The translations under genes were made by a program, and so were the position numbers. From Rossellomorea marisflavi (GTDB lineage: Bacteria; Bacillota; Bacilli; Bacillales; Bacillaceae_B): a DNA stretch of 64,000 nt. Positions 12,781-51,005 of the stretch are shown piece after piece. Under the pieces are notes generated by a model, which worked only from the letters and a program-made list of their open reading frames with translations, did no database searches and was not told the origin of the DNA. The stretch lies in NCBI RefSeq assembly GCF_022170785.1, contig NZ_CP081870.1:1662001-1726000 (forward strand), given 5' to 3'. Numbering within the stretch: the first letter of the stretch is position 1; each line of letters starts with the position of its first letter.

Positions 12781-12980
12781 AGAAAAGCCTCTTCCAGTTG
12801 TGAAAGAGGCTTGAAGAATACTTCGTCGCCTCTTATCTCTCAGAATGGAATCATTCTGTTGGAATTAGCACCGTGCCCTGGTCAGGCGCATCGAATCTGC
12901 GCCCCGTCTTTCAACGGTATTACGGTCGGTTGCTGGGCTTCATAGGGCCAAATCCCTCAGCCAGCTCTTGATAAGAGTTG
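12781..12980 (-). promoter_or_regulatory. SAM-I (S-box) riboswitch of mtnKA
   Basis: On the minus strand the S-box core is plain: CTCTTATCAAGAG (P1, 12977-12965), GGCTGAGGGA, GGCCCTATGAAGCCCAGCAACC, GGTGCTAATTCC and GAGAGATAAGAG closing P1. The expression platform is a terminator hairpin AAGCCTCTT / AAGAGGCTT (12785-12812) with a T run, placed before the mtnK ribosome site. High SAM should switch the operon off. Confidence 0.96.
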
Positions 12981-15221: not shown

Positions 15222-15371
15222 ATTCTTATCAAGAGCAGGCGGAGGGACTGGCCCGATGAAGCCCGGCAACCGACTCATTACGAGCACGGTGCTAATTCTT
15301 GCAGCAGACGCTGGGAGATAAGATAGAGTGATGGATTGAAAGCCTCTTCTTATCGGAAGGGGCTTTTTTGA
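15222..15371 (+). promoter_or_regulatory. SAM-I (S-box) riboswitch of mtnWXBD
   Basis: The core elements are ATTCTTATCAAGAG, GGCGGAGGGACTGGCCCGATG, AAGCCCGGCAACC, GGTGCTAATTCTTGC and GGGAGATAAGAT. The terminator AAGCCTCTTC / GGAAGGGGCTT plus T run (15339-15370) precedes the mtnW ribosome site AAGGAGG. Confidence 0.97.
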
Positions 15372-27030: not shown

Positions 27031-27347
27031 CAAATGGAGGCTGAGACAAATATGTTTTAGTCATAGTAAAACCCGAATCATTTGCCTACGATAAAGCAAG
27101 TGATTCGGGTTTTAAATTTGTTTAATGAACATTCAAATTTCATCGTTTCCAGCGGTTGATCGGAGTGCAAGACGAAGACTCCTGCGGGAGAGTAGCTGAT
27201 GTGAGACCCCGCAGGCGTGCCGAGGAGGCTCACGGGCTACCCGCGGAAAGCGAAGTCTTGCACGGAGATCATGAGCGGTATTAAGATCCTATACTGATCG
27301 TGTTCGGCATTAAAGGGGCTTTATTTAGTTTTTCCCATCCTCATTTT
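27031..27347. repeat. MITE-like structured repeat, copy 1
   Basis: The copy begins and ends with imperfect terminal inverted repeats (27031-27049 and 27329-27347). Inside are a hairpin CCCGAATCATTTGC / GCAAGTGATTCGGG (27072-27109) and a larger fold closed by GTGCAAGAC / GTCTTGCAC (27165-27173 and 27255-27263) with inner stem CCTGCGGG / CCCGCAGG. It fills most of the 438-base space between the SDR and moxR genes. Related copies are at 45423 and 50632. Confidence 0.85.
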
Positions 27348-36831: not shown

Positions 36832-36912
36832 ATTTCGGGGAAATCACTGGATTTTTTCCTCGAAAAGCGTTATATTGTTTTAGGATAAAAGAAGAAAAAT
36901 TGGGACGTACCC

Positions 36913-36981
36913 GAGAGGTTCTAGCACAACCCTCTATAAAAAACTAAGGAAAACGGCATCCTTAGGTGTCGTTGTTTTTTT
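36913..36981 (+). promoter_or_regulatory. preQ1-I riboswitch of queCDE
   Basis: The aptamer GAGAGGTTCTAGC-ACA-ACCCTCTATAAAAAACTAAGG (36913-36949) is a textbook preQ1-I H-type pseudoknot. It is followed by the terminator stem AACGGCA / TGTCGTT and seven T. The terminator loop, TCCTTAGG, is complementary to the CTAAGG at the aptamer 3' end, so an alternative CTAAGG/CCTTAG pairing gives the antiterminated state. Confidence 0.95.
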
Positions 36982-43895: not shown

Positions 43896-44282
43896 GCGCT
43901 TTTCTTCATGTCCAGCTCCAGGGGCTTGAGGCTCGAGATCATAAGACAAGAACTCCAAAAAGGCACAGGACGCCTTTCCAGAGTTCTTGTCTTATGCTTG
44001 TCGCCTCAGGGCGAGCCCCTTCCGCTTTTCTTCATGTCCAGCTCCAGGGGCTTGAGGCTCGAGGTCATAAGACAAGAACTCCAAAAAGGCACAGGACGCC
44101 TTTCCGGTTCTCTTGTCTTATGCATGTCGCCTCAGGGCAAGTCCCTTGCGCTTTTCTTCATGTCCAGCTCCAGGGGCTTGAGGCTCGAGGTCATAAGACA
44201 AGAACTCCAAAAAGGCACAGGACGCCTTTCCAGAGTTCTTGTCTTATGCTTGTCGCCTCAGGGCGAGCCCCTTCCGCTTTTC
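43896..44282. repeat. Three tandem 126-bp repeats plus a partial fourth
   Basis: Units start at 43896, 44022 and 44148 with the landmark CGCTTTTC; a partial fourth starts at 44274. Each unit contains the stem ATAAGACAAGAACTC / GAGTTCTTGTCTTAT around the apical core AAGGCACAGGACGCCTTTCC. Because 126 is a multiple of three, reading frames stay open through the array and produce long false frames. It belongs to the broad class of Bacillus intergenic repeats ending in GCTTGTCGCCTCAG-like sequence. Confidence 0.9.
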
Positions 44283-44342
44283 TTGTATACCCATTCTTTT
44301 TTCTGGGGAAGTTATGGGAAGATGATGAAAGGGGGGCTTTCG

Positions 44343-44609: not shown

Positions 44610-44652
44610 AAAACCCATCAAGAAGGCCAGGGACGCCTTTCGGTGGGTTTTA
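44610..44652 (+). terminator. Terminator with repeat-like apical core
   Basis: AAAACCCATC / GGTGGGTTTT outer stem with inner AAGGC-CAGGGAC-GCCTT, then TATTTTT. The inner core matches that of the 126-bp repeats while the outer stem is unrelated. Confidence 0.75.
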
Positions 44653-44715
44653 TTTTTGGTGGAGTCGGAAAGGTTGGAACTCTTGTATTTTTAGATGAAG
44701 CCTTGTTGGCGGGTT

Positions 44716-44820
44716 GGGGATCGAGTTCATAAGCCGTGCTGATTCAGAAGGCAAAGAACGCCTTTCCGTGTGTCTTGTCTTATGCTTGTCGCCTCAGAAT
44801 GACCCGCCTCCGCTTTTCTA
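44716..44820. repeat. Degenerate copy of the 126-bp unit
   Basis: GGGGATCGAGTTCATAAG, the core AGAAGGCAAAGAACGCCTTTCC and GTCTTGTCTTATGCTTGTCGCC match the unit, but the outer arms no longer pair. It occupies much of the 329-base space 44586-44914, which has no gene. Confidence 0.75.
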
Positions 44821-44914
44821 TGTTTAAATGGCGGGGGAGCGGGAAAACAAGAAATAAGCAATTGTCAGACAATGGACAAAAGGTTTGTACCATACATACA
44901 AGGAGGAATGGCAT

Positions 44915-45421
44915 ATGGTGAGAAAATACTGGTTGATCCTGACGCTTGTCCTTGGGTTGAGTTTGACCGTTGGCACACAGGCCACGGCAATTGGAACGAC
45001 TGTAGATCAATTGGACGGAAAACAGGCTGTCACCCTGGTGGAAGATGCGTTTGAGGTTCAACGTTCTTTAAGTGAAAAGCCGAGGGGAAAGGCTGACATA
45101 GAAGCGATGCTTTCAGATTATTTCACGGATGAACAGGTGAAGGGGTTCATGGAAGAAAACCTTTATCAAGAAGGCGATGGGTATAGTGCATTCGGATCGG
45201 ATTTTGCCTCTTACTATATTCCTTTCTTTACATTTGATAAAGAAACAAAGGCTGCATTTGATGATGGGCATTGGTACATATGGGAAGTACGATCAGGAGA
45301 TGAGGAAGGACCTGTTTCCACGGTTCAAGGGGAAGAGGTAGTCAAACTATCCTTTACTGATGGAAAGTGGAAAATCTCTTCTATCTCATATGAACTTCCG
45401 TCAGGAATAAAAGGGAGTTAA
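44915..45421 (+). CDS. Secreted hypothetical protein (DUF3993-like)
   Basis: This 168-residue protein has a signal peptide (MVRKYWLILTLVLGLSLTVGTQATA, about 25 residues, no lipobox Cys) and a small exported domain with a helix (AVTLVEDAFEVQRSLSEK), an acidic segment (SDYFTDEQVKGFMEENLY) and a strand-rich C-terminus (EEVVKLSFTDGKWKISSISYEL). The pattern recalls DUF3993 proteins of Bacillus, an uncertain match. ATG 44915 follows AAGGAGG. Function unknown. A MITE-like repeat begins two bases after the stop. Confidence 0.7.
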   Translation: MVRKYWLILTLVLGLSLTVGTQATAIGTTVDQLDGKQAVTLVEDAFEVQRSLSEKPRGKADIEAMLSDYFTDEQVKGFMEENLYQEGDGYSAFGSDFASYYIPFFTFDKETKAAFDDGHWYIWEVRSGDEEGPVSTVQGEEVVKLSFTDGKWKISSISYELPSGIKGS

Positions 45422-45422
45422 A

Positions 45423-45727
45423 GAAAATGGGGTTGGGACAAGAGTGTTTAAGTCATAGTAAAATCCGAACGATCTTGCCTGAGATCGTTCGGGTTTTTGA
45501 TGTGTTTCATGTCCATTATTATTTACTTGTTCCTAGCGGTTGATTGGAGTGCAAGACGAAGACTCCTGCGGGAAGAGTAGCTGATGTGAGACCCCGCAGG
45601 CTTGCCGAGGAGGCTCACGGGCTACCCGCGGAAAGCGTAGTCTTGCACGGAAATCATGAGCGGTATAAAGAAGCCATACTGATATTGTTCGCCATGACCT
45701 TTATTGTGTTGTCCCAATCTCTTTTTC
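45423..45727. repeat. MITE-like structured repeat, copy 2 (best-preserved ends)
   Basis: Terminal inverted repeats: GAAAATGGGGTTGGGACAA (45423-45441) against the complement of 45709-45727, 16 of 19 matching, including nine perfect inner bases. Inside are the hairpin CCGAACGATCT-TGCCTG-AGATCGTTCGG (45465-45492) and the fold closed by GTGCAAGAC / GTCTTGCAC. It fills most of the 367-base gap. An open frame inside it is not a gene. Confidence 0.88.
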
Positions 45728-45788
45728 AGTGTTTTAAGGAAAGGTCGGGGGGAAGAAAAGGGATGGTCGTGTTGACATAGAATACTGT

Positions 45789-46025
45789 TTAGGAGAGATC
45801 CAGGGCTTGAGCCAACTCCTCCATCTGAAATCCTTTAATCACCTGATCGTCCACCGTAACGGTTGGTGTAGAATAGCTTTTCAACACGTTCAGCATATAG
45901 GATCGGGCGTTTGGTTCTTCTTTGATGTTCACCTCTATGTAGGGAATTTGCTGTTCTTTTAAGTATAATTTCACGATTTCGCAAGGGGGGCACTCGGGTT
46001 GAGTATATAAAGTGACAGTCTTCAC
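45789..46025 (-). CDS. Glutaredoxin-like thiol oxidoreductase
   Basis: This 78-residue thioredoxin-fold protein has the redox motif C-P-P-C (TQPECPPCEIVK) and the cis-Pro region YSTPTVTVDDQVIKGF. It reduces disulfides in the cytoplasm or serves as a bacilliredoxin-type partner; no target is indicated. GTG 46025 is favoured by GAGAGAGG eight bases upstream; ATG 46034 and a longer reading from 46061 are alternatives. Divergent from ykuJ. Confidence 0.85.
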   Translation of the reverse strand: MKTVTLYTQPECPPCEIVKLYLKEQQIPYIEVNIKEEPNARSYMLNVLKSYSTPTVTVDDQVIKGFQMEELAQALDLS

Positions 46026-46284
46026 TCTGATCATCCTCTCTCTCGGGTAATGTGAACCCATTTTACAAGAAGCAAGTACCCGTGTAAATCAAGAGGTCTT
46101 ATATGGTGGATAAAATTATTTATTGAATATGGACCGGATTAGTGGTTAACTTAGAGAGACCTTTTGGACATGCGTGATAAAAACTCATTGTCTAACAGGG
46201 CGTATCATTAGATTTTGCAGGATAGAATCTGTTACAATGCAAAAGCTATGACAAAGAATTAGAACAGGAAAGGAGAGACCTGAT

Positions 46285-50617: not shown

Positions 50618-50631
50618 TAGGAATGCAAAAA

Positions 50632-50860
50632 AGCTGGGACAGACGTGTTCTAATCATAGTGAAACCCGAATTCATTTGCCGACAATGAATTCGGGTTTTT
50701 TATTTATTTCATGATCATTTATCGTTACTTGTTTCTATCGGTTGATTCGAGTACAAGACGAAGACTCTTGCGAGAAGAGTAGCACCCTGCAGGCTTGCCG
50801 ATGTGACTCACGGGCGACCCGCGGAATGCGAAGTCTTGCACGGGAACCATCAACGGTATA
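50632..50860. repeat. MITE-like structured repeat, copy 3 (degenerate, right end lost)
   Basis: The left end GCTGGGACAGACGTG, the hairpin CCCGAATTCATT-TGCCGAC-AATGAATTCGGG (50665-50695) and the CAAGACGAAGACT...AAGTCTTGCACG fold are present. About 11 bases of the inner part are deleted and no right inverted repeat is found. It occupies most of the 388-base gap before the 51006 operon; the remainder holds the hairpin AAACCCAA-CCTCT-TTGGGTTT (50863-50883) and the operon leader. Confidence 0.82.
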
Positions 50861-51005
50861 AACCCAACCTCTTTGGGTTTGACCAGTTCCTTCAGGTAGG
50901 AATCGGCGCGATGGAAAATATTTCAGATGATAGTAGAAAGAAGAGAAACTTTTTATCGCGTGTTACGTCTAAACCATATAGAGAGAAAGAGAGGGGGAAT
51001 GGGTC

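Follow-up and report, generated by a model that had tools for sequence, protein, structure and literature searches.

The hairpin at positions 45465–45492 of the 64,000-nt stretch of Rossellomorea marisflavi DNA that we analysed (hereafter the window) is probably the intrinsic terminator of a ~300-nt non-autonomous element (MITE) of the IS1182 family, which replaces the terminators of genes and whose hairpin arms are compensated under a function that persists. The initial annotation of this hairpin is partly supported by these results; the mobile nature of the repeat and the removal of a resident stem-loop were missing from it.

Organization of the repeat in the window

The hairpin belongs to a repeat of ~293 nt (45430–45722, plus strand) and lies close to its left end; the repeat is defined by its BLAST copies in the same genome. 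Imperfect inverted repeats mark its two termini, its core is large and structured, and the whole folds with z = −5.6. The left terminal inverted repeat, GGGTTGGGACAA (45430–45441, plus strand), resembles the ends of the IS1182-family elements L106, L109, L110, L111, L112, L114 and L117, and the right one, TTGTCCCAATCTCT, occupies 45709–45722 on the same strand. Hairpin 1, the proposed replacement terminator identified from a terminator scan and from covariation, spans 45460–45497 of the plus strand (AAAATCCGAACGATCT...AGATCGTTCGGGTTTT). It includes a left arm at 45465–45475 (CCGAACGATCT), a loop at 45476–45481 and a right arm at 45482–45492 (AGATCGTTCGG), which confirms the position, arms and loop first described. 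The conserved structured core, found as inverted repeat I1 and containing hairpin 2 (GACTCCTGCGGG...), follows at 45541–45656 (plus strand). Upstream of the repeat, a gene for a DUF3993 protein (44915–45421, plus strand; the start codon is our choice) ends with a stop codon at 45419–45421, and downstream a convergent gene with a glutaredoxin domain is encoded on the minus strand (45789–46061).

Two further copies are present on the plus strand of the window, one at 27036–27342 (hairpin 1 at 27068–27113) and a degraded one at 50631–50874 (hairpin 1 at 50662–50699), the right end of which is approximate. Pairing had been noted in all three copies and it holds, with one T.G wobble in the 27-kb copy. 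The motif TTGCC, reported at the loop side, is partly inside the stem in copies other than the one under study, and the flank, described as conserved, varies from copy to copy (TTTAAGTC, TTTTAGTC and TTCTAATC). What is left of the right end in the degraded copy (50860–50880) makes a small hairpin, AAACCCAACCTCTTTGGGTTT, which may have become a terminator for the opposite side.

A candidate tip hairpin is found at 45431–45454 (plus strand), where GGTTGGGACA could pair with TGTTTAAGTC; over the 98 aligned copies described below, 82% of its cells are paired and the exchanges are mostly among G-U, G-C and A-U. It is suggestive only that this pairing would account for part of the conserved flank. 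In 45431–45454 and its equivalents, the end GGCTGGGACA is able to pair with TGTTTTAGTC just inside it, and the ends of IS1182-type elements can fold in like manner (GGCTGGGACATAACTAGCC). A different repeat family, with 126-nt tandem units and further partial copies, lies just upstream (44000–44283 and 44621–44819) and carries AAGGC...GCCTTTCC and CATAAGACAAG/CTTGTCTTATG arms. Elsewhere, the window contains group II intron domains, two SAM riboswitches and a PreQ1 riboswitch (1236–1531, 12830–12977, 15223–15324 and 36909–36953).

Hairpin 1 as a predicted terminator

Hairpin 1 has the features of an intrinsic terminator, namely a G+C-bearing stem, a short loop and a T-tract 3′ of the stem, and the T columns 3′ of its right arm are almost invariant in the alignment. 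A scan of 44800–46200 returned three terminator sites compared to 1.2 in shuffled sequences, and all three are readings of hairpin 1, two on the plus strand (the longest with 17 pairs) and one on the minus strand. The string AGTCATAGTAAAA, allowing up to two mismatches, gave six matches against a mean of 1.1 in shuffles, three of them being the copies of the repeat. As judged from these sequence features, hairpin 1 probably ends the transcription of the upstream gene, and it looks like a stop signal carried by a mobile repeat in place of the gene's own.

Stem-loops replaced by the repeat

Using the downstream gene, we found the locus in 11 of the 36 genomes of the genus, including the genome under study. 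None of the ten relatives holds the repeat at this site, nor a GGGACAA in the middle of the locus, and the repeat is therefore most likely the derived state. The closest relative (G046), whose flanks are 96–97% identical in three flank searches, has in its place AAAAGGACCTATGATATCATAGGTCCTTTT, a terminator-like hairpin: it reads GTTAAAGAAAAGGACCTATGATATCATAGGTCCTTTTCAGTGTTTTAAGG where our genome reads GTTAAAGAAAAT-[repeat]-TTTTTCAGTGTTTTAAGG. In a second relative (G039), as in G046, the site holds only a hairpin. A strict scanner calls a terminator at this site in five of the ten relatives, and the other five show by eye an inverted repeat followed by a T-run. The terminator reading of the initial annotation fits this site as well, related genomes holding a terminator-like hairpin where hairpin 1 stands.

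We then compared the other copies with G039, which is collinear with our genome, at the predicted spots. Both flanks placed 72 of 79 copies, while the place at 3158424 has too little flank for placement. G039 was called occupied at 46 of the placed copies (one of them wrongly), had a short gap lacking the element motif at 24 and was unclear at 2. In many short gaps, a terminator-like hairpin is present in G039 where our genome has the repeat. From 28 short gaps, two were set aside as G039 carries a copy there, and six of the remaining 26 have no readable right end, leaving 20 readable sites. At 18 of these, the segment lost from our genome has a folding z-score below −2 relative to 100 single-letter shuffles (segments of 19–61 nt over all 20). 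The deletion of a target stem-loop, as expected from IS1272-type insertion, is thus observed at 18 of 20 readable sites, among which are those of all three window copies. The two exceptions are 1454472 (z = −1.9), which nevertheless has a short hairpin, and 3061062 (z = 0.7), where the flank has diverged. The junction falls exactly at the nominal end of the element in 11 of the 20 sites and within 6 nt of it in 19, and no target duplication was seen in the junctions inspected. Note that, since stem-loops are common after genes, the argument for replacement rests on these flush junctions and not on the presence of hairpins alone.

The second window copy (27036–27342) and the third (50631–~50874) are also present in G046, the latter with one compensated pair change, and G039 has a hairpin in place of each. 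At one locus, L024 (2955011), the segment replaced is itself the hairpin 1 of an earlier copy, where a newer one now stands. The copies at 1997820, 1659397 and 2149695 belong to different subfamilies in our genome and in G039, reflecting either independent insertions into one terminator or the replacement of one copy by another.

Copy number and position after genes

With a covariance model covering hairpin 1 plus flanking sequence, built from 47 copies of our genome, the repeat was found at 80 or more distinct places in that genome, a lower bound since 150 of 1546 first-look candidates were scored. These places were collapsed from 142 model matches, nearly all the surplus being the same palindromes read on the opposite strand; one weak extra place (2434321) was left out. 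The model also has matches in 29 of the 36 genomes of the genus. In a scan of named genomes with a 19-base pattern, for which we calculate about two matches by chance, 28 of the 29 stretches found lie in Rossellomorea marisflavi and one in Cyclobacterium.

According to naive ORF calls, the nearest upstream ORF is on the same strand as the repeat for 68 of 79 copies, and its stop codon is found −5 to 40 nt before GGACAA in 57 of 79. Most copies therefore follow a stop codon closely and have hairpin 1 on the side of that gene. The copies lie between convergent genes (42), between tandem genes along their direction (26) or against it (11), and none of the 79 between divergent genes. The orientation bias in tandem pairs is modest (26 versus 11, p = 0.02, naive ORFs), and some calls, chiefly among the 11 copies against the genes, may be wrong-strand artefacts. 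In other genomes, a stop codon lies −20 to 40 nt before the end of the repeat in 24 of the 35 matches examined, from a set of 37 loci (two without a match) that includes some duplicates and false matches. The same short change in the core, from CCCGCGGAAAGCGAAGTC to CCCGCGCGCAGTC, is observed in 5 of 40 copies (L006, L007, L008, L023 and L034) across subfamilies, as if copies had exchanged sequence.

Relation to IS1182-family elements

PF13751 is present in 33 of the 61 genomes searched. Ends of the type GAGGCTGGGACAAA/-ACATAA, with 0–2 mismatches, were found at 7 of 20 PF13751 loci, at both ends in six of the seven; lone matches with 2–3 mismatches in other PF13751 loci were left out of this count. 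Six of the seven come from genomes of the same genus; the seventh, L114, belongs to a different genus within the order. In L106, the transposase carries the domains DDE_Tnp_1_6, DDE_Tnp_1 and DUF772. Because GAGGCTGGGACAAA-type ends are common to IS1182-family elements, the repeat looks, on its sequence, like a non-autonomous IS1182 element (MITE). Its ends match full-length members of the family, it is ~293 nt long with a high copy number and no transposase gene, and it has both filled and empty sites.

A mobilizing transposase in the same genome, another trait of MITEs, was not found: an IS1182-type transposase has no match in our genome, in G039 or in G046. Our genome also has no full IS with the same ends, its 25 end matches (up to one mismatch) including no inverted pair 1–3 kb apart; they form five inverted pairs spaced by 269–295 nt, which is the spacing of the short repeat. 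The missing transposase is not a strict bar to MITE status, but it lowers the certainty about the mobilizer. As no transposase was found although the copy under study appears younger than the split between our genome and G046, the mobilizer is now absent, lost or not recognized.

We also folded five full-length IS1182-type elements (L106, L110, L111, L114 and L117, of which L111 and L117 have short or broken frames). All have a strong hairpin with A/T tracts 27–35 nt inside both ends, compared to 31 nt inside the end in the copy under study. The arms of these end hairpins differ among the elements, and at the right end one pair is A-T in L106 and T-A in L111. On the evidence of these five elements, end hairpins that resemble terminators may be characteristic of the family.

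Covariation of the hairpin arms

In 47 copies of our genome, stem positions 7–14 of hairpin 1 are paired in 327 of 363 cells (90%), compared to 64 ± 3% when each left arm is matched with a right arm taken from another copy (maximum 75% in 1000 shuffles) and 29–47% when partners are slid. In this count, the arms were anchored on the conserved outer CCCGAA/TTCGGG because, in copies with short arms, MAFFT puts the right arm in the wrong place. From a folding of 40 copies, five had been left out when the anchors failed; four of them entered the 47-copy count, and the fifth is the remnant of the older copy in L024, which has no hairpin 1.

We also scored covariation over an alignment of 98 copies, 79 from our genome (all that it has in the set) and 19 from other genomes, nine of 28 loci from the latter having been dropped beforehand for hairpins of another length. 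The score is 0.224 compared to 0.124 in shuffles, none of the 500 attaining the true value, and it does not exceed 0.092 with slid partners; the short-arm copies with a misplaced right arm were kept and lower it. Covariation in a larger alignment, whose absence the initial annotation had named beforehand as its refutation, is thus present. Of the 20 pairs of hairpin 1 in these copies, 15 vary on both sides, four on one side only and one never. A weaker measure, the number of pairs changed on both sides over the whole structure, does not separate the true pairing (17 of 30) from slid ones (13 to 19).

Since related copies inflate such tests, we compared orthologous copies at the same locus. Between our genome and G039, 46 loci give 82 coincident left and right changes, compared to at most 57 when the right-arm change sets are dealt across loci (5000 runs) and at most 66 when position rates are kept within each locus (3000 runs); these two nulls took the place of a less strict one with uniform positions. 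After dropping six suspect loci, among them 4153984, an ordinary G039 hairpin miscalled as a copy, the 40 clean loci give 50 coincident changes, with maxima of 37 and 38 under the two nulls. Restricting the comparison to the 22 clean loci where the hairpins are of equal length gives 23 versus at most 21 for both nulls. The closer pair alone, our genome and G046, gives two coincident changes at 12 loci where 0.5 are expected, which is not significant (p = 0.08). One-sided changes leaving a pair broken are also common in the 40 clean loci (66 cells), which speaks against compensation. Selection on the hairpin, whether as RNA or as terminator, was proposed initially and agrees well with the covariation in the larger alignment and with this same-locus comparison, and we infer that selection is the cause of the compensation.

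This selection might serve the element instead of the host. Hairpin 1 could shield the element, or the transposase gene of its parent, from outside transcription, or be a structure recognized by the transposase, with host genes doing no more than tolerate the insertion. The hairpins near both ends of all five folded full-length IS1182-type elements speak for such a role, as does the replacement of hairpin 1 of an older copy by a newer one at L024, since a hairpin can then be a target. However, the stems stay paired in orthologous copies (90% of cells in our genome and 92% in G039, 46 loci), although transposition by itself would not require this, and we consider this explanation unlikely.

Recombination or gene conversion between paralogous copies could also produce compensated arms, by moving whole hairpins rather than by mutation within the locus. 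Subfamilies with distinct arms exist, they differ between our genome and G039 at the three loci mentioned above, and the short core change recurs in five of 40 copies. Against this, single pairs change with the loop untouched, from A-T to C-G in window copy 3 versus G046 and from G-C to T-A in L003 versus G039, and the excess of coincident changes survives the removal of the six suspect loci. A further single-locus compensation, from T-A to C-G, is seen in L023 versus G046. Exchange between copies may add to the change of the arms; that it would be the origin of their compensation appears improbable.

The initial annotation had offered a templated process swapping the arms as the other reading; a whole hairpin is actually replaced in one case, L024. 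In the DNA-level form of this reading, the covariation would arise mainly as one arm is rewritten from its partner by templated repair (strand switching at a quasi-palindrome), and the terminator would be incidental. At the 40 clean loci, 24 of 38 compensated changes require a mismatched intermediate, the G.U route not being preferred, and L188 has, versus G046 and G039, three clustered changes all toward perfect pairing. By our reckoning, however, 24 of 38 is near the two thirds expected if the route does not matter, as a blind choice among pair types would also give. One-sided changes are moreover frequent at the same loci (66 cells with a broken pair and 24 wobble cells), and termination accounts for the outer A/T tracts as well as for the terminator-replacing position. 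Templated repair as the main source of the covariation is thus quite unlikely in our view.

Discussion

Taking hairpin 1 as a terminator carried by a MITE, we propose the following scenario. An IS1182 transposase would move the repeat by an insertion that replaces a stem-loop, hairpin 1 would then end transcription of the upstream gene instead of the lost terminator, and, the terminator job persisting at each locus, a mutation in one arm would be compensated in the other, the arms drifting while the fold stays.

Group IIC introns use terminators as targets and certain IS elements use REP palindromes; both insert into the palindrome or next to it. The repeat is like them in using terminators or palindromes as targets and unlike them in exchanging the stem-loop. 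Targeting of REP palindromes by IS elements has been described (PMC1525189).

The closest likeness in mode of insertion is to IS1272 and TnSha1 of staphylococci, members of the IS1182 family which target hairpins without sequence specificity and without target duplication (PMC4923244, PMC5678879). Insertion of TnSha1/IS1272 is described there as a partial blunt deletion of the hairpin (PMC4923244), and IS1272 as replacing the target inverted repeat (PMC5678879). Of seven TnSha1 sites, RNA-seq confirmed five (hairpins A–E) as terminators (PMC4923244). Our repeat likewise takes the place of a stem-loop; by contrast, the passages on IS1272 and TnSha1 describe elements with a transposase, or a transposase plus fabI, and mention neither a replacement terminator carried along nor arms covarying between copies, both of which we propose for the repeat. 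IS1182 is also listed among the families over-represented between convergent genes (PMC9208149). The bcr1 and other short repeats of Bacillus and the stem-loop families Bhal-1 and Sta-1 are likewise short, structured and repeated in Bacillales or staphylococci (PMC2267715); the passages on them, with which we compared the repeat by description, do not mention terminator replacement.

Rfam at its gathering threshold has nothing at the repeat. The S. aureus RNA tsr24 (RF02577) matches weakly over hairpin 1 and the core, with 25.5 bits, half of the 50-bit gathering score, and by Rfam's rule the repeat is not a member. This sub-threshold match is what would favour a plain, immobile family of small RNAs or regulatory elements related, for instance, to tsr24, a reading made scarcely tenable by filled and empty orthologous sites at many loci and by ends common to IS1182 elements.

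Among the literature matches listed, in which few subscription journals are covered, we found no account of a high-copy MITE that carries a replacement terminator with covarying arms, and none of a Bacillus MITE or IS1182 element carrying a terminator. Searches for the core DNA string gave no relevant match, and those for tsr24 with Staphylococcus no match. Insertion by replacement of a stem-loop is thus known from IS1272/TnSha1, while the high-copy MITE with a covarying replacement terminator is apparently new, not being found in the literature searched.

More tentatively, IS1182-type elements could be regarded as 'terminator transplants' that swap a host gene's terminator for one of theirs, the host depending on the terminator of its parasite and loss of the element being penalized, with paired changes that are frequent and arise in part by templated repair; we hold this wider reading as possible rather than probable. 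If true, terminator transplants would give a natural set of many re-randomized terminators. Overall, the data suggest a way for a mobile element to spread with low harm in a gene-dense genome, by landing on a terminator and supplying another. The three related genomes, in which some copies are shared and others private, give before-and-after pairs of terminators for individual genes, together with many compensatory changes, so that the cost of terminator loss, and stepwise versus templated compensation, would be directly testable.
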